From assembly GCF_001528665.1 (NCBI RefSeq), contig NZ_BBYJ01000024.1, positions 62,001-126,000 of the forward strand: a stretch of DNA of 64,000 nt. Direction: 5' to 3'. Each line of letters begins with the position of its first letter. Position 1 is the first letter of the stretch. Below are positions 3,800 through 9,738 of this stretch, piece by piece. The notes under the pieces are model-generated. The model ran no database searches and had not been told where the DNA came from. It saw nothing but the letters and a program-made list of their open reading frames with translations. A program made the translations under genes and the position numbers. The DNA is from Microtetraspora malaysiensis. Lineage in GTDB: Bacteria; Actinomycetota; Actinomycetes; Streptosporangiales; Streptosporangiaceae.

Positions 3800-5062
3800 T
3801 CAGCGGCCGAGCCACGCGAGAGCGGCGACGACCAGGGCCTGGGAACCGGTGTCCAAGGTGGGCTGCGGGATCGGGGCGAACGCGGCGGAATGGTTCACCG
3901 GGATGTCCTGCGCCACCCGGCCGGCGGCCTCGGCCCTGCGGTAGGTCTCGGGGTCGATGCCGCCGATGCCCCAGTAGGTGTACGGGACTCCCAGGGCGTT
4001 CGGGATGTCGCTGAAGTCCTCGCTGGCGGTCTGCCGGCCCATCGGCCCGGCCCGGTCGCCGAAGAACTCACCGAACGCGGCGGCCACCCGGCTGGTGGTC
4101 TCGGGATCGTTGTCGGTCAGCGGGAAGCGGTCGAACAGCTCGATCTCCGGAGCCTTCGGACACCGCGACGCCTGGCACTCGGCGAGGACGATGCGGCGCA
4201 CCGCGTCCAGGATCGCGCTTCTGGTCCGCTCGTCGTAGGTGCGGATGTTGAACTCCAGCACGGCGTGATCGGGGATGATGTTGCTCTTCGTGCCGGCCTG
4301 GACGCTGCCGACCGTGACCACCGCGGTCTCCCCCGGCGAGGTCTCACGGGACACGATGGTCTGCAGCCGGATCACGATCATCGCCGCGAGGACCACAGGG
4401 TCGACGGCCGCCTGCGGCATCGAGCCGTGGGCTCCGCGTCCGTACACCGTGACGCGCCCGCTGTCGGCGGCGGAGAGCACCGGACCGGCATGAGTGCCGA
4501 CGTACCCGGCCGGCGCCGGCAGCACGTGTTGCGCGAGCGCCACGTCCGGGACCGGAATCAGCTCGGCGAGGCCGTCGTCGAGCATGGCCCGCGCGCCGTC
4601 GCCGGTCTCCTCGGCCGGCTGGAACAGCGCCACCAGCGTGCCCCGCCAGCGGTCGGTCCCCTCGGCGAGCAACTGGGCCGCGCCGAGCAGACAGGTGACG
4701 TGTACATCGTGTCCACAGGCGTGCGCGATCGGTATCTCGCGCCCGCCGGGGCCCGTGACCGTGTCGGCGCTGGCGTACGGCAGGCCGGTCGCCTCTCGCA
4801 CCGGCAGCGCGTCCATGTCCGCCCGGAGCAGCACCGTCGGGCCGTCGCCGTTACGCAGCACCCCGACCACACCGGTGCCGCCGACCCCCTGGTGTACCTG
4901 GCAGCCGATCCGGCCGAGGCGCTCGGCGATCTTCGCGGCGGTACGCCGCTCATGGTGCGACAGCTCAGGATGCCGATGCAGGTCCCGGTAGAGATCCTCC
5001 TGCCATCCCCGCACGGACCCCAGACGGGCCGCCACAGATGACGCGGGTGACATGGCAGCCAT
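3800..5062 (-). CDS. M20 family amidohydrolase (N-acyl-amino-acid/hippurate hydrolase type)
   Basis: A 420-residue cytosolic metallohydrolase. Metal-site motifs are present in order: RADMDALPV, HACGHDVH, the EE pair in PAEETGDGA, QHVLP, and a C-terminal PVNHSAAF. The dimerisation-domain HGSMPQ motif indicates the amidohydrolase subgroup that cleaves N-acyl groups from amino acids or auxin-like conjugates; substrate is not predictable. The ATG at 5060-5062 is preceded by GAGGAGGG, making it a much better start than the frame opening at 5089. Confidence 0.85.
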   Translation of the reverse strand: MAAMSPASSVAARLGSVRGWQEDLYRDLHRHPELSHHERRTAAKIAERLGRIGCQVHQGVGGTGVVGVLRNGDGPTVLLRADMDALPVREATGLPYASADTVTGPGGREIPIAHACGHDVHVTCLLGAAQLLAEGTDRWRGTLVALFQPAEETGDGARAMLDDGLAELIPVPDVALAQHVLPAPAGYVGTHAGPVLSAADSGRVTVYGRGAHGSMPQAAVDPVVLAAMIVIRLQTIVSRETSPGETAVVTVGSVQAGTKSNIIPDHAVLEFNIRTYDERTRSAILDAVRRIVLAECQASRCPKAPEIELFDRFPLTDNDPETTSRVAAAFGEFFGDRAGPMGRQTASEDFSDIPNALGVPYTYWGIGGIDPETYRRAEAAGRVAQDIPVNHSAAFAPIPQPTLDTGSQALVVAALAWLGR

Positions 5063-5153
5063 GACGCCCTCCTCACGGCGGCGGCACACGTGCCCTCCTT
5101 CGAGGCTAGGCCCTCCGGTTCGGCCGGGCGGGACCGCGTCCGGCGTCAGGGCC

Positions 5154-5780
5154 TCAGCACTTCGACCGGTCCCGAATGCACGCCGAGTCGACGACGTTCG
5201 AGATTCCGGGCAGGTGCTCGACGCCCCTCACCACCGCCTTGTGATCGGCCCCCTGCTTCAGCTTCGCACGGAAGGACTCCGGAAGATCCGTCGGTTTGAT
5301 CACGTCGAGAAGCTTCTGGGTTACCTCTTCGTTGGGCCGGGGATTGCTCGCCCGGAATCTCTCGTAGGCCTCCATCTGCGACTCGAACTTCACGGACTCG
5401 ACCCCGGGCAGTGACTCCAGCACCTGCCGGATCCGCCGCCGATCGTCCTCGGTCGCCGCACGCTCCTTGCACACCGGGAAGGCATCGTTCTTTCCGCAAA
5501 GGAACACCACGACCTCGTCCTGCCAGGAATCCGCCCCCGCCAGGCTGAGCTGGACCAGGCTGTACGCCACAGGACTGGCCGCCGTCGTCTCCGGAGGCGC
5601 GGGCCGTACCAGCAGAAACACTCCGACGGACATCGCGGCGACGAGCGCGGCGGGGATCACGACGAACCGGGAGATCCGGGCGCGGGAACGCCCGCGCGGC
5701 GCGCTCAGCGGGCGGACGGAACGGAGGTCGGCGGTCGCCGCCGCTTCGGACAGGGCTTCACGCAGACGTTGTTCGATCAT
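5154..5780 (-). CDS. single-span membrane protein with an FtsX-like extracellular domain, sigma-factor partner
   Basis: A 208-residue protein: a short cytoplasmic N-terminus (1-38), one membrane helix (39-58), and an extracellular domain (about 88-198) matching the extracytoplasmic domain of cell-division protein FtsX, with the family's FLC...C pair (Cys95, Cys104), the AT....I..VL..LP.V..V.FES stretch and LPESFRAKL. The four-helix permease core of real FtsX is absent. It overlaps the preceding SigE-type sigma gene by four bases (ATGA), the arrangement of a sigma/anti-sigma pair, but the N-terminus lacks the HxxxCxxC zinc anti-sigma motif. I infer a membrane regulator or sensor for that sigma factor; function is unproven. 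Confidence 0.75.
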   Translation of the reverse strand: MIEQRLREALSEAAATADLRSVRPLSAPRGRSRARISRFVVIPAALVAAMSVGVFLLVRPAPPETTAASPVAYSLVQLSLAGADSWQDEVVVFLCGKNDAFPVCKERAATEDDRRRIRQVLESLPGVESVKFESQMEAYERFRASNPRPNEEVTQKLLDVIKPTDLPESFRAKLKQGADHKAVVRGVEHLPGISNVVDSACIRDRSKC

Positions 5781-6304
5781 GATTCCTCCCCAAGGGTCCG
5801 GCCGAGGGCGGCGAGCCCCCGTGTGATGGTGGAGCGCGCCGTGCTCCCGGCGACGCCCATGGTGTCGGCGATCTCCTCGTACGACAGATCGAGGTAGAAC
5901 CGCAGCACGAGCGCCTCGCGCTGCCGTCGCGGCAGGCCGCTCAGAGCGACCAGGACCTCCCGGCGTTCCTCGCCGATCATCGCGACGCTCTCCGCCGACC
6001 AGACGGGCGGCGCGTACGGCACCGCCCGCCGGAAGGCGAGGCTCCTGCGCCGCAGCACGGATCGGCAGCCGTTCAGCACGGCCGACCGCACGTACGCCAG
6101 GGCGCTGCCCGGCTCACGCAACCGCTGCCGCCCCGCGTGCATGCGCGCGAACGCCTCCTGGACGACGTCCTCGGCCGTGGCGAGGTCACCCACCATGAGC
6201 AGCGCCAGCCGTACCAGGCCGAGATGATGGTCGGCGAACAGCGCCGCGACGTCGACGCGTTCCTGGATCAAGGGCTCTCTCTCCGAGAGCAGTTCGGCTT
6301 TCAC
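5777..6304 (-). CDS. SigE-family ECF RNA polymerase sigma factor
   Basis: A 175-residue two-domain sigma factor: region 2 (ALFADHHLGLVRLALLMVGD and EDVVQEAFARMH), the linker PPVWSAES typical of this group, and region 4 (LPRRQREALVLRFYLDLSYEEIADTMG plus a recognition helix). It overlaps the FtsX-like membrane partner by ATGA. The start is placed at the GTG at 6302-6304, exactly five bases after a CGTCTCT element, as in the paralogous sigma gene at 7952-8500; a GTG at 6317-6319 lies inside that element and a TTG at about 6273 has a GGAGAGAGAG upstream, so both remain possible. Confidence 0.85.
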   Translation of the reverse strand: MKAELLSEREPLIQERVDVAALFADHHLGLVRLALLMVGDLATAEDVVQEAFARMHAGRQRLREPGSALAYVRSAVLNGCRSVLRRRSLAFRRAVPYAPPVWSAESVAMIGEERREVLVALSGLPRRQREALVLRFYLDLSYEEIADTMGVAGSTARSTITRGLAALGRTLGEES

Positions 6305-6337
6305 ACCAAAGAGACGCACTGGTGTGGCTTCTGCTGC
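6305..6337 (-). promoter_or_regulatory. predicted ECF-type promoter, leaderless start
   Basis: Reading the minus strand: GCAGC (6337-6333), 16 nt, CGTCTCT (6316-6310), 5 nt, then the GTG start. The same layout precedes the paralogous sigma gene (8501-8533). The CGTC core is a common ECF -10 element, and the distance places transcription at or near the start codon. Confidence 0.5.
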
Positions 6338-6378
6338 TTCTGTTCCGGAAGAAACACTCCCACGGGGCGGAAACGGGA

Positions 6379-6420
6379 ACGGCCGGCCTGCCCGGGCGGA
6401 TCCCTCGGCAGGCCGGCCGT
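6379..6420 (-). terminator. intrinsic terminator between the two sigma modules
   Basis: A perfect 14-bp stem (ACGGCCGGCCTGCC at 6379-6392 with its complement at 6407-6420) and a 14-nt loop, just downstream of the gene ending at 6435. It separates the two sigma/membrane-protein pairs into distinct transcripts. There is no T-tract, which is usual in actinobacteria. Confidence 0.75.
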
Positions 6421-6434
6421 ACCGGCGGTGACGG

Positions 6435-7955
6435 CTACCAGGCGAACCTGGAGCCGAAGACGCGGGAAGGTTCCTCGGTCTTGGTCAGCGCCCGGTAGCC
6501 CGCCGCGTCGACCGCGCCGATCTCGTCGCCCCGGGAGACGATCACGTGTTCGCCGGTGCCGTCGAGGTCGAGCAGCCGGATCGCCGCCTCGCCCGCGTCG
6601 TGGTAGACGACACCCGCCGCCTTCCCGTCGGCGGTGTCGTACGCGATGAGGTCCGCGGATCCGCCCACCTGCCGGCCCGTTTTACCGTCGATCTCCGTGT
6701 TCTGGAACGCGGCCACGATCCGGCTGCCGTCCGGGCTGATGGCGGCTCCCTGCATGCCGCCTGACGCTTCGCCGCCCCGTGCGGAGAGGGAGATGCTGCT
6801 CGCCTGCTCCAGGCTGTCGCCGGGCGCTCCGGTGTCCAGGAGGCGCAGATCCGACAGGCCGGGACACACCTTGACGACCGCGTGCACCTCGACCGGAGCC
6901 TCACCCGGAGCGACAGCGGGCGACGACCCCTCGCTCGGCTCGTCCAGCATGGTCGCCGAGGGGAAGCCGCACCACTCGGCCTCCACGCTCGGCTCAACCG
7001 GTGACACCTCGGTCATCACGAACGGCGTCTCGACACTCGGCGTCACAGAGGGCTCGGCCGTCGCGGGACTCGGGACGGCGGTCGCCGTCGCCTCGGACGC
7101 CACCGGACTCGCCATGATCGCATCAATCACTGGCGCCGGGGGTTCTCCCACCCGGCTGACCATCGGATACGGGGACGGCGCCTCGGTCGCCGTGGGCGTC
7201 GCCTCATCGGTCACCGGAGCCGATGACCCGAGCTCCATCCGAACGTAACCGGCGAAGAGCACGAAACGGCCATCGGCCGTCATCGACAGTTCGGAGACGT
7301 CGACGCCGGCCTTCGCGGTCCACGTGCGGCTGTCGCCGGTCGCCGTGTCCGTGACCACCAGGCGGCCTTTCTCGCCACCGCGGCACGGCACCACGCCATA
7401 CGCGAGCTTGCCGCCGTCACCGCTGACCGCCAGGGAGGTCGGCCTGGTGCCCTCGGGCGGCGCGAAGGGCAGCGGGCCGAACGACCCGACCTTCCCCTCC
7501 TCGTCCAGCGTGAAGCGGTACAGCCGCGGCCGGCAGTCATCCTGGGCCGACACCGCATAGAAGAGCCGGTTGTCTTGCGCCGCCTGGATCCCGACGAACC
7601 GCTCTGTCCCGGAGGGGTTCGGGACCCGGGAGGTCTCCGCGCCGCCGCTCACGCTCCTGACGGTGATCCCGCCCTCCCCGGCCTCGGCGAAGAACGTGGG
7701 GGCGGCGGCGAGGCCCGCGCTCGTGGCGGCGTCCTGGCCAGGGCCCCCGCCCCCGCCCCGGGCGACCGCCACGCCGCCGGCCACCGCGACCGTCACGGAC
7801 GCCGCCGCGGCGAGCGGGACCAGCCAGGCTCTCCGCGCCCGGCTCGCGCCCCCCGAGCGCGTACGGCCCGCGCTCAGCGAGAAGGCCGGCACCTGGTCGA
7901 TGGTCTCGCCCACCGCCCTGGTGGCGTCGCGCAGGCGATCGGTGATGTCGTTCAT
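6435..7955 (-). CDS. single-span membrane protein with extracellular propeller-like domain, sigma-factor partner
   Basis: A 506-residue protein with a cytoplasmic N-terminus starting MNDITDRLRDATRAVG, a membrane helix about 44-66, and an extracellular part with repeated strand-turn units (GDGGKLAYG, MTADGRFVLFAG, SPDGSRIVAAF) resembling WD40/TolB-like propeller blades. The blades are interrupted by a Ser/Thr/Pro/Glu/Val-rich low-complexity insert at about residues 240-355. The start overlaps the upstream SigE-type sigma gene by four bases, so it likely senses an envelope signal and controls that sigma factor. No zinc anti-sigma motif is visible, so the mechanism is an inference. Confidence 0.72.
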   Translation of the reverse strand: MNDITDRLRDATRAVGETIDQVPAFSLSAGRTRSGGASRARRAWLVPLAAAASVTVAVAGGVAVARGGGGGPGQDAATSAGLAAAPTFFAEAGEGGITVRSVSGGAETSRVPNPSGTERFVGIQAAQDNRLFYAVSAQDDCRPRLYRFTLDEEGKVGSFGPLPFAPPEGTRPTSLAVSGDGGKLAYGVVPCRGGEKGRLVVTDTATGDSRTWTAKAGVDVSELSMTADGRFVLFAGYVRMELGSSAPVTDEATPTATEAPSPYPMVSRVGEPPAPVIDAIMASPVASEATATAVPSPATAEPSVTPSVETPFVMTEVSPVEPSVEAEWCGFPSATMLDEPSEGSSPAVAPGEAPVEVHAVVKVCPGLSDLRLLDTGAPGDSLEQASSISLSARGGEASGGMQGAAISPDGSRIVAAFQNTEIDGKTGRQVGGSADLIAYDTADGKAAGVVYHDAGEAAIRLLDLDGTGEHVIVSRGDEIGAVDAAGYRALTKTEEPSRVFGSRFAW

Positions 7956-8500
7956 CGTGCGTTCCCCAGCAGTCGGCCGAGCGCGTCCAGGGCTCGGGAG
8001 GTGGTCGACTTGACGGTGCCCCGGCTGACGCCCATGACCTGGGCGGTCTCCTCTTCGGAGAGGTCGGCGTAGTAACGCAGCACGAGCGCCTCACGCTGCC
8101 GCCGGGGCAGGCGGTGCAGCGCCTCCATGACCTCGCGCCGTTCGGCCCCCAGGAGGGCGGCGGATTCGGCCGACCACACGGGCGGCTCGTACGTCCCGGC
8201 GAACCAGGACGGCAGGCGCCTCCTGCGCAGCACGGTCCTGGCGTTGTTGAGCACGGCCGACCGCAGGTAGACGAGCGCCTTGCTCCGGTCCCGCAGGCCG
8301 CCGAACCGGCGATGGAGGCCGAGGAACGCCTCCTGGACCACGTCCTCGGCAGCCTCACGGTCGCCGAGCATGATCAGTGCCAGCCTGGCGAGGCCGATCG
8401 CGTGCTCGGCGTACAGAGCCGCGATCGTCTCGTCCGCAGATTCCGGGGCGGTCACCGACGCTCCGGGAGGTTTATGGATATCCAGCGTTTCGGCCTGCAT
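7952..8500 (-). CDS. SigE-family ECF RNA polymerase sigma factor
   Basis: A 182-residue paralogue of the sigma factor at 5777-6304: region 2 (AALYAEHAIGLARLALIMLGD and EDVVQEAFLGLH), linker EPPVWSAESAALLG, and region 4 (LPRRQREALVLRYYADLSEEETAQVMGVSRGTVKS split by the usual helix turn). It overlaps the downstream membrane-protein gene by four bases. The ATG at 8498-8500 lies five bases after a CGTCTCT element, so the transcript is probably leaderless. The pairing of sigma plus single-span partner is the same as in the adjacent module, with unrelated extracellular domains. Confidence 0.9.
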   Translation of the reverse strand: MQAETLDIHKPPGASVTAPESADETIAALYAEHAIGLARLALIMLGDREAAEDVVQEAFLGLHRRFGGLRDRSKALVYLRSAVLNNARTVLRRRRLPSWFAGTYEPPVWSAESAALLGAERREVMEALHRLPRRQREALVLRYYADLSEEETAQVMGVSRGTVKSTTSRALDALGRLLGNAR

Positions 8501-8533
8501 GCACCAGAGACGCCGAATCGCCTCTCAGGTTGC
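8501..8533 (-). promoter_or_regulatory. predicted ECF-type promoter, leaderless start
   Basis: Minus strand: GCAAC (8533-8529), 16 nt, CGTCTCT (8512-8506), GGTGC, then ATG. Spacing of both boxes and of the start codon is identical to the promoter at 6305-6337, which supports a shared, possibly autoregulatory, ECF promoter. Confidence 0.55.
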
Positions 8534-8550
8534 TCCCGTCACCCGGCTCG

Positions 8551-9738
8551 CTATCGCGGGACGCGCGGATCCCGGAGGGCGAGGGTCATGGCCTCCACCG
8601 CGATCTGCGGGTTCACGTTCGCCGCGAGCCGCTCCCGGCAGATCATGATCGCCTCGGTACGGCGCAGCGTGTCCTCGGGGGTCGATCTGGCCGCGAGCGT
8701 CTCCACCTCGCGCCTGCGGTCCTCGTTGGCCAGCCCCACCCCGGCTCCGAGCTGCACGGCGAGGACGTCCCGGTAGTACGCCACCAGATCGAGCAGCGCC
8801 ACGTCGATCGAGTCGCGCTTGATCCGGGTGGCGCGGGACTTCTGCAGCGTCTCCAGCTCCTTCAACGCGCCGGCGCCGCCGCGGACCAGGCCCTTGCCCA
8901 GCCCCTTGCCCGACGATCCCTCGCCGTAGACCCTGCGCAGCTCGGCGGTCTCGACCTCGTTCAGCGTGGCCGTCGCCGCGTCGGCGTCCTCGGCCGAGGT
9001 CTTCACCAGCCGTTCGGCCGCCGCGATGCACTCGCCAACGCCGGTGAGCGACGCGGGGATGGACAGCACCTCCTCACGGCGCCGCCGGACCTCCTCGTCC
9101 AGGGCCAGCCGCCGGGCCCGCCCGACGTCGCCGTGCGCGGCCCGCGCCGCGAACCAGGCCATGTCGTCCGGCACGTTGTCCCGGGTCGCCAGCACGTGCG
9201 CGACCGCCTCGGTGGACGGCGTACGGAGCGTCACGACGCGGCAACGGGACCGGATCGTGATGATCATGTCGTCGGGCGACGGGGCGCAGAGCAGCCAGAC
9301 CGTCCGCGGCGGCGGCTCCTCGATCGCCTTGAGCAACGCGTTGGCGGCGGCCTCGGTGGCGCGGTCGGCGTCCTCGAACAGCACGATCCGCCAGCGGCCG
9401 AGCGTCGGGGCGCCCGCGCCCTTGAGCACGAGGTCGCGGGTCTGCTTGGCGCTGTAGGAGAGCCCCTCGGGCCGCACCCAGGTCAGGTCCGGGTGGGAGC
9501 CGATCTCGACCTGGTGGCAGGAGTCGCAGTGCCCACAGCCCTGGTCGGGGCAGAGCAGCGCCGCCGCGAAGGCGCGGGCCGCGTCGGAACGCCCGGAGCC
9601 GGGAGGGCCGGTGAAAAGCCACGCGTGGGTCATCCCGGCGCCGCGACCGCCCGCGAGGACGTCGGCGGCGGCGGAGGCGGCCTGTCCCAGCACGGCGGCG
9701 GCCCGATCCTGGCCCACCAGATCCTCGAACACACCCAC
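8551..9738 (-). CDS. holB: DNA polymerase III subunit delta-prime
   Basis: A 395-residue clamp-loader subunit. The N-terminal AAA+ domain has the P-loop variant GPPGSGRSDAAR, where the usual Lys is Arg as in many delta-prime subunits, a four-Cys zinc module (C-x8-type cluster in CPDQGCGHCDSCHQ), the VLFEDADRATEAAANALLKAIEEPP Walker B/SRC region and TIRSRCR. It follows tmk in the same orientation, the order known from other actinobacteria (topA, tmk, holB). The start is GTG at 9736-9738. Confidence 0.93.
   Translation of the reverse strand: MGVFEDLVGQDRAAAVLGQAASAAADVLAGGRGAGMTHAWLFTGPPGSGRSDAARAFAAALLCPDQGCGHCDSCHQVEIGSHPDLTWVRPEGLSYSAKQTRDLVLKGAGAPTLGRWRIVLFEDADRATEAAANALLKAIEEPPPRTVWLLCAPSPDDMIITIRSRCRVVTLRTPSTEAVAHVLATRDNVPDDMAWFAARAAHGDVGRARRLALDEEVRRRREEVLSIPASLTGVGECIAAAERLVKTSAEDADAATATLNEVETAELRRVYGEGSSGKGLGKGLVRGGAGALKELETLQKSRATRIKRDSIDVALLDLVAYYRDVLAVQLGAGVGLANEDRRREVETLAARSTPEDTLRRTEAIMICRERLAANVNPQIAVEAMTLALRDPRVPR

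Follow-up and report, generated by a model that had tools for sequence, protein, structure and literature searches.

In a window of 64,000 nucleotides (nt) from the 8.8-Mb draft genome of the actinobacterium Microtetraspora malaysiensis (contig NZ_BBYJ01000024.1, positions 62,001 to 126,000; G000:C24:62001-126000 in our collection), two small gene pairs stand one behind the other, each consisting of a gene for an extracytoplasmic function (ECF) sigma factor and a gene for a membrane partner. We consider it likely that these are tandem-duplicated, self-activating, leaderless sigma/anti-sigma modules, with promoters that have been separated from one another and with sensors that can be swapped on a shared RLRxAL segment. 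What would keep two copies of one switch from throwing each other?

The mechanism that we propose runs as follows. The operon of each sigma factor would be transcribed by that factor from an ECF promoter of consensus type, and transcription would start (+1) at base one of the start codon. The partner, whose gene overlaps the sigma gene by 4 base pairs (bp) and would hence be translationally coupled to it, would hold the sigma factor by means of a short N-terminal cytoplasmic helix (RLRxAL), and its outer domain (like the FtsX extracellular domain, or ECD, in module 1 and a beta-propeller in module 2) would report a signal from the envelope, releasing the sigma factor to amplify its own operon. 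After the duplication, the two loops would have been separated by a matched change: the fourth base of the -35 box (A or G) and the residue of the sigma4 helix that faces it (K164 or R157).

Behind a holB-like gene, the minus strand carries, in this order, sigma2, partner 2, a hairpin, sigma1 and partner 1 (positions are those of the window; aa, amino acids):

8506..8533, minus strand: promoter of module 2, with -35 GCAAC (8533-8529), a 16-nt spacer and -10 CGTCTCT (8512-8506)
7952..8500, minus strand: sigma2, ECF sigma factor of 182 aa, recognition helix SRGTVKSTTSRAL with K164; TIGR02983, PF04542, PF08281
6435..7955, minus strand: partner 2, 506 aa, with an RLRDA segment, one span and an extracytoplasmic beta-propeller
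6379..6420, minus strand: hairpin with a 14-bp stem that lies after module 2 and ahead of promoter 1; folding energy -46.7 kcal/mol (z -2.5)
6310..6337, minus strand: promoter of module 1, with -35 GCAGC (6337-6333), a 16-nt spacer and -10 CGTCTCT (6316-6310)
5777..6304, minus strand: sigma1, ECF sigma factor of 175 aa with a GTG start, recognition helix AGSTARSTITRGL with R157; PF04542, PF08281
5154..5780, minus strand: partner 1, 208 aa, with an RLREAL segment, one span and an FtsX_ECD domain (residues 89-196)
8551..9738, minus strand: holB-like gene for DNA polymerase III delta', immediately upstream; anchors the locus by synteny and lies outside the module

An earlier note on this DNA, made from the letters alone, had placed GCARC-N16-CGTCTCT-N5-start before both sigma genes, and it does stand there exactly, the five nucleotides being GGTGC before the ATG at 8500 in module 2 and TTGGT before the GTG at 6304 in module 1. 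The four-base overlaps of each sigma gene with a one-span membrane partner are likewise as described (7952-7955 and 5777-5780). Both sigma factors match PF04542 and PF08281 only (the conserved domains sigma2 and sigma4; we otherwise use sigma2 for the gene of module 2), which makes them ECF, or group IV, sigma factors, and they are paralogues, ~60% identical. The note had placed both in the SigE family, and the best curated family match for both is TIGR02983 (SigE-fam_strep): sigma2, at 153.2 bits, lies above the cutoff of 141.55, and sigma1, at 137.8, just misses it. The motif described for Streptomyces coelicolor SigE differs from ours: its -35 resembles GGAACTT, and its spacer is 18 bp long in most cases (PMC10771440). 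In the collection searched, the module has its closest named relatives in Microtetraspora, Planotetraspora and Microbispora, that is, in Streptosporangiaceae. An Rfam search of 4900-8800 matched no family.

A promoter predicted to end at the start codon

We gathered orthologues and close homologues from 151 family genomes and scanned 60 homologous loci for conservation without imposing a start position. In 58 of them, the motif has an in-frame start exactly 5 nt downstream, against a background in which an arbitrary in-frame codon is a possible start in 5.7% of cases, so the arrangement is not due to chance; the search before orthologous sigma genes that the note had called for thus finds the motif in place. 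All 30 relatives of sigma2 have GCAAC, followed by a -10 box of CGTCTCT (27 loci) or TGTCTCT (3 loci) and then N5-ATG. Across the 59 aligned loci, the predicted sigma factors vary in length from 168 to 222 aa, and the distance from promoter to start is constant.

Mean pairwise identity (sigma2 set, then sigma1 set) is 0.96 and 0.87 in the -35 box, the second figure being depressed by two loci whose spacer is 17 nt long, and 0.97 and 0.99 in the -10 box. It is 0.43 and 0.39 in the spacer, 0.32 and 0.33 in the upstream flank (-60 to -34) and 0.49 and 0.46 in codons 2-20. By these figures, the boxes are more tightly constrained than the stretch that encodes the N-terminus, and the flanks, which the note had seen to differ between the modules, diverge among relatives as well (~32% identity) while the boxes stay. 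The sigma genes of the orthologues keep a promoter of their own type, as is characteristic of autoregulated ECF operons.

Of 343 family genomes, 144 contain the full pattern with its start codon (3 matches in total for the reversed control), and 51 of the 63 sites in a sample collected promoter-first begin a sigma gene. If the start codon is left out of the search, the strict form matches 159 times in the 151 genomes, against 145 for the reversed control, with no conserved extra targets standing out. Within the genome of M. malaysiensis itself, GCARC-N15-17-CGTCTCT occurs 4 times, which is about chance (control 7), and the leaderless form has 4 matches against 3 in the control; in either case, two of the four are the promoters of the window, each exactly 5 nt ahead of an in-frame sigma start. 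Other strict matches in this genome (C9 and C14) were considered and set aside, as they are not obvious leaderless targets. Since the strict form is at control level without the start codon and with it mostly precedes sigma genes, it marks the module's own promoter; any further targets would have to depart from this form.

A few sites are recorded here for their own sake. At L039 (G000:C9:19024-19052), GCAAC-N17-CGTCTCT lies ~60 nt upstream of the gene for a putative secreted protein with its own sequence resembling a ribosome-binding site. At L271 (G002:C121:26877-26912), a full leaderless promoter comes right before an open reading frame (ORF), with no sigma gene between, and the start of this ORF (VENRVRAAARALGDAVDELPPL) resembles the N-terminus of the anti-sigma partners. 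At L276 (G437:C19:125272-125307), a full leaderless GCAGC promoter precedes an ORF of 291 aa with a signal-peptide-like start, a candidate non-sigma target or a chance match. Two other SigE-family genes of the same genome as the window, G000:C6:65556-66023(-) (L011) and G000:C7:472719-473183(-) (L017), have GCAAC-N17-CGTA upstream and then a mini-ORF of eight codons (ATGGAACTGGACGAACCGGCGTGA and ATGACACTGGACAGAGCCGAGTGA, respectively), the stop of which overlaps the GTG start of the sigma gene; it is a possible leaderless leader peptide coupled to that gene.

Where would transcription begin? In the open complex of Mycobacterium tuberculosis SigH (SigH-RPo), the -10 element is read as G-11 T-10 T-9 (PMC6411747). 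In this register, CGTC takes up positions -12 to -9 and TCT-N5 positions -8 to -1, which puts +1 on the first base of the start codon. Leaderless transcripts are plausible in this phylum, as about 20% of the genes of Streptomyces lividans are leaderless (PMC6742748). Judging from the geometry and the invariant spacing, the mRNAs of both operons are probably leaderless, in line with the note's prediction of an ECF-type promoter with a zero-length leader. We found no literature on ECF genes of this group that are leaderless and autoregulated, our coverage of the literature being incomplete.

Base four of the -35 box and the helix predicted to face it

The note had called the two promoters identical in architecture, and so they are in -10 box, spacer and start distance; the -35 boxes, however, differ, and they do so by paralogue: GCAAC in 30 of 30 sigma2 relatives and GCAGC in 29 of 29 sigma1 relatives. 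The recognition helices differ in parallel (GTVKSTTSRA for sigma2 vs STARSTI.RG for sigma1), K164 being present in all 30 of the former and R157 in all 29 of the latter. When 109 homologous sigma genes are aligned, position 164 is the column most informative on -35 base 4, with 0.89 of 1.00 bit, and the runner-up, a nearby position at the start of the helix, reaches 0.74 bit. The pairs of residue and base are K/A in 55 sequences, R/G in 52 and R/A in 2, with one S/G outside the K/R count. The promoter-first sample, which comes mostly from new genomes but may have a few in common with the alignment, gives K/A 20, R/G 16, R/A 4 and S/G 3. K is thus paired with A in all 75 cases across the two samples, and R mostly with G.

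Structural work on M. tuberculosis SigH indicates what this residue may do: M181 contacts -31 and -30, the fourth and fifth bases of the -35 box, and the M181A change relaxes specificity there (PMC6411747). S165 and R169 of our sigma factor align with the SigH contact residues S182 and R186, which makes K164/R157 homologous to M181.

Two points tell against too simple a view of this pairing. Outside both clades of the window there are exceptions, R with GCAAC in 6 cases and S with GCAGC in 4, and we rejected a plain rule that R means G, seeing that Actinomadura-type GTVR sigma factors retain GCAAC; the rule is strict within the two clades of the window and context-dependent beyond them. Moreover, on the best sigma tree, built with the helix columns excluded, there are seven independent K/R contrasts, with a concordant base change in five or six and an opposite one in none, and just one of the seven falls on well-supported branches. 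The statistics of independence are accordingly modest, and we make no strong phylogenetic claim for the co-variation. A scan for co-variation of the -10 bases with residues of the sigma2 domain was confounded by clade and was abandoned.

Co-variation of residue and base at autoregulated ECF promoters is also the substance of the ECF recognition code of Todor et al. (2020), as it is cited in PMC8103513 and PMC11588781, and that code may already include this very K/R-A/G pair. Unlike the code as cited, the co-variation here separates tandem paralogues of one locus.

A third close paralogue lies outside the window at G000:C24:49012-49515(-) (L023, L122). It has a GTVKS helix and a GCAAC -35 box, its -10 is of CATG type in place of CGTC, and the start codon again stands 12 nt from the beginning of the -10. 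It is possibly insulated via the -10 rather than the -35.

Separate or shared control

About 12 genomes have both modules, 12 have sigma2 only and 16 have sigma1 only, and in the single-module genomes every promoter retains its own -35 type. This is what one would expect if each sigma factor reads its own promoter, and it would be unexpected if one sigma factor served both. The hairpin between the operons, which is terminator-like but has no T-run, fits separate transcription. All this suggests that the duplicated switches are wired apart and not shared.

The note had proposed that each sigma factor, or one of them, transcribes both modules. Transcription by each of its own module is what the sequences predict; joint control is not supported. 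It is true that the -10 box (CGTCTCT), the spacer length and the start position are the same in both, with a single -35 base differing, that this genus and a few more have the modules side by side and that identical -10 boxes make some cross-recognition plausible, a point that counts against full separation. But the differing base, the R of GCARC, is conserved by paralogue (30/30 vs 29/29) and matched to a residue of the recognition helix, and each promoter type survives where the other module is absent, and so we regard a shared regulon as improbable. Could the motif instead serve a third sigma factor, unrelated to these two and acting as master regulator of both, with the start codons lying downstream of a leader? 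The genome is certainly rich in ECF sigma genes (150 scored region-4 matches), and an identical -10 could serve an outside sigma factor. Such an outsider would not track the K or R of its neighbour, however, whereas the -35 base tracks the sigma factor encoded right behind it across many genomes, and an in-frame start exactly 5 nt downstream in 58 of 60 loci speaks against a leader. We give this idea very little weight.

Finally, the likeness of the promoters could be put down to the common descent of recently duplicated DNA free of functional constraint. The sigma factors are indeed paralogous (~60% identical), and both lines are found behind holB, which lies within 1.5 kb upstream of 24 of 24 sigma2 orthologues and also ahead of five sigma1 loci that lack sigma2 (directly before the sigma gene in four, ~1 kb away in one). 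What accounts for this placement of both lines is that the module was duplicated in tandem next to holB, after which the copies were differentially lost and relocated. Descent without constraint is another matter, and it is refuted by the contrast in conservation: within the orthologue sets, the boxes are 87-99% identical, against 39-43% for the spacer, 32% for the flank and 46-49% for codons 2-20. We consider it hardly credible.

Duplicated, self-activating modules with separated promoters are the reading that we consider likely. One might go on to imagine closed loops, in which each sigma factor mainly drives its own operon, the membrane partner is the output and the tandem copies are separated by single matched changes of base and residue. 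We entertain this, tentatively and with some doubt, because hardly any strict leaderless promoters stand elsewhere than before the module's own sigma gene.

Membrane partners and what they may sense

The start of the partner gene nearly always lies inside the stop of the sigma gene (ATGA or GTGA), with a 4-bp overlap in 105 of 108 cases. In both types of partner, the single membrane span (residues ~38-60 in partner 1 and ~43-65 in partner 2) is preceded at the N-terminus by an RLRxAL...P(L) stretch ~25-30 aa long. The RLRxA motif was counted in 95 cases, a figure that is not independent, as our partner finder favoured starts that carry it. Operon structure, topology and this shared segment point to putative anti-sigma factors. 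Less favourable to this reading are the cytoplasmic part of ~37-45 aa, which falls under the 50 aa or more of a class I (ASDI) cytoplasmic domain (the curation limit in PMC7406223) and places the partners outside that class, and a weak NCBIfam anti-sigma match (E 3e-4, 20.8 bits vs a cutoff of 100). In the model of partner 1, the cytoplasmic segment has one confident helix, at residues 2-15, with low confidence beyond. By architecture alone, the partners resemble class II anti-sigma factors of the CnrY type, in which a short cytoplasmic sigma-binding part is tethered to a membrane span. With the autoregulated ECF sigma/anti-sigma operons already described (PMC8103513), the modules share a sigma factor with a membrane partner, an AAC-type -35, a CGT-type -10 and positive autoregulation as the probable mode of control; unlike that general paradigm, they have a predicted leaderless start that is fixed across the whole clade, and their partners combine a cytoplasmic segment of very small size with an outer domain of FtsX-ECD or propeller type.

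The outer domains are unrelated, as the note had seen. That of partner 1 is a clear FtsX_ECD homologue (PF18075, E 1e-14, 55.3 bits vs a gathering threshold of 23.5); its AlphaFold model has a pLDDT of 93-98 over most of the domain core and, by Foldseek, matches 6hfx and 4n8n, the latter being the FtsX ECD of M. tuberculosis. Partner 2 is modelled by AlphaFold as a beta-propeller, split by a disordered, P/T/S-rich insert at residues ~242-357. Partner 1 is no FtsX permease, which would have four spans and an FtsE partner: with 208 aa and a single predicted span, it lacks the permease part, scores 64.8 against a cutoff of 250 for NF038346 and, unlike FtsX of the divisome (FtsEX), is linked to a sigma gene instead of ftsE. 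We found no literature linking FtsX domains with anti-sigma factors, though coverage was incomplete.

Pfam finds FtsX_ECD in 27 of 29 sigma1 partners, and also in all 6 partners of a sigma2-like clade (L067-L072). Sorted by promoter class, the GCAGC/R sigma factors have 40 FtsX-ECD-like and 10 propeller-like partners, and the GCAAC/K sigma factors have 35 propeller-like and 13 FtsX-ECD-like ones. Both outer domains therefore occur with both promoter classes, that is, the sensors are exchangeable, which together with the shared RLRxAL segment bears out the note's picture of one regulatory chassis fitted with different sensors. Some sigma1 partners of ~345 aa (L082, L086, L093 and L097) appear to carry two tandem FtsX-ECD-like domains.

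What does all this mean? A promoter that ends at the start codon gives a sequence rule by which such sigma genes can be found directly from DNA. More than 100 genomes now form a large natural series in which a duplicated signalling module would have been separated at a single contact of base and residue, with the rest of the promoter fixed, and in this series the insulation of paralogous sigma factors from one another can be cleanly tested. The FtsX extracellular domain, for its part, belongs to the division machinery, where it regulates cell-wall hydrolases; finding it here on a likely signal receptor suggests that the signal may come from the envelope or from division.

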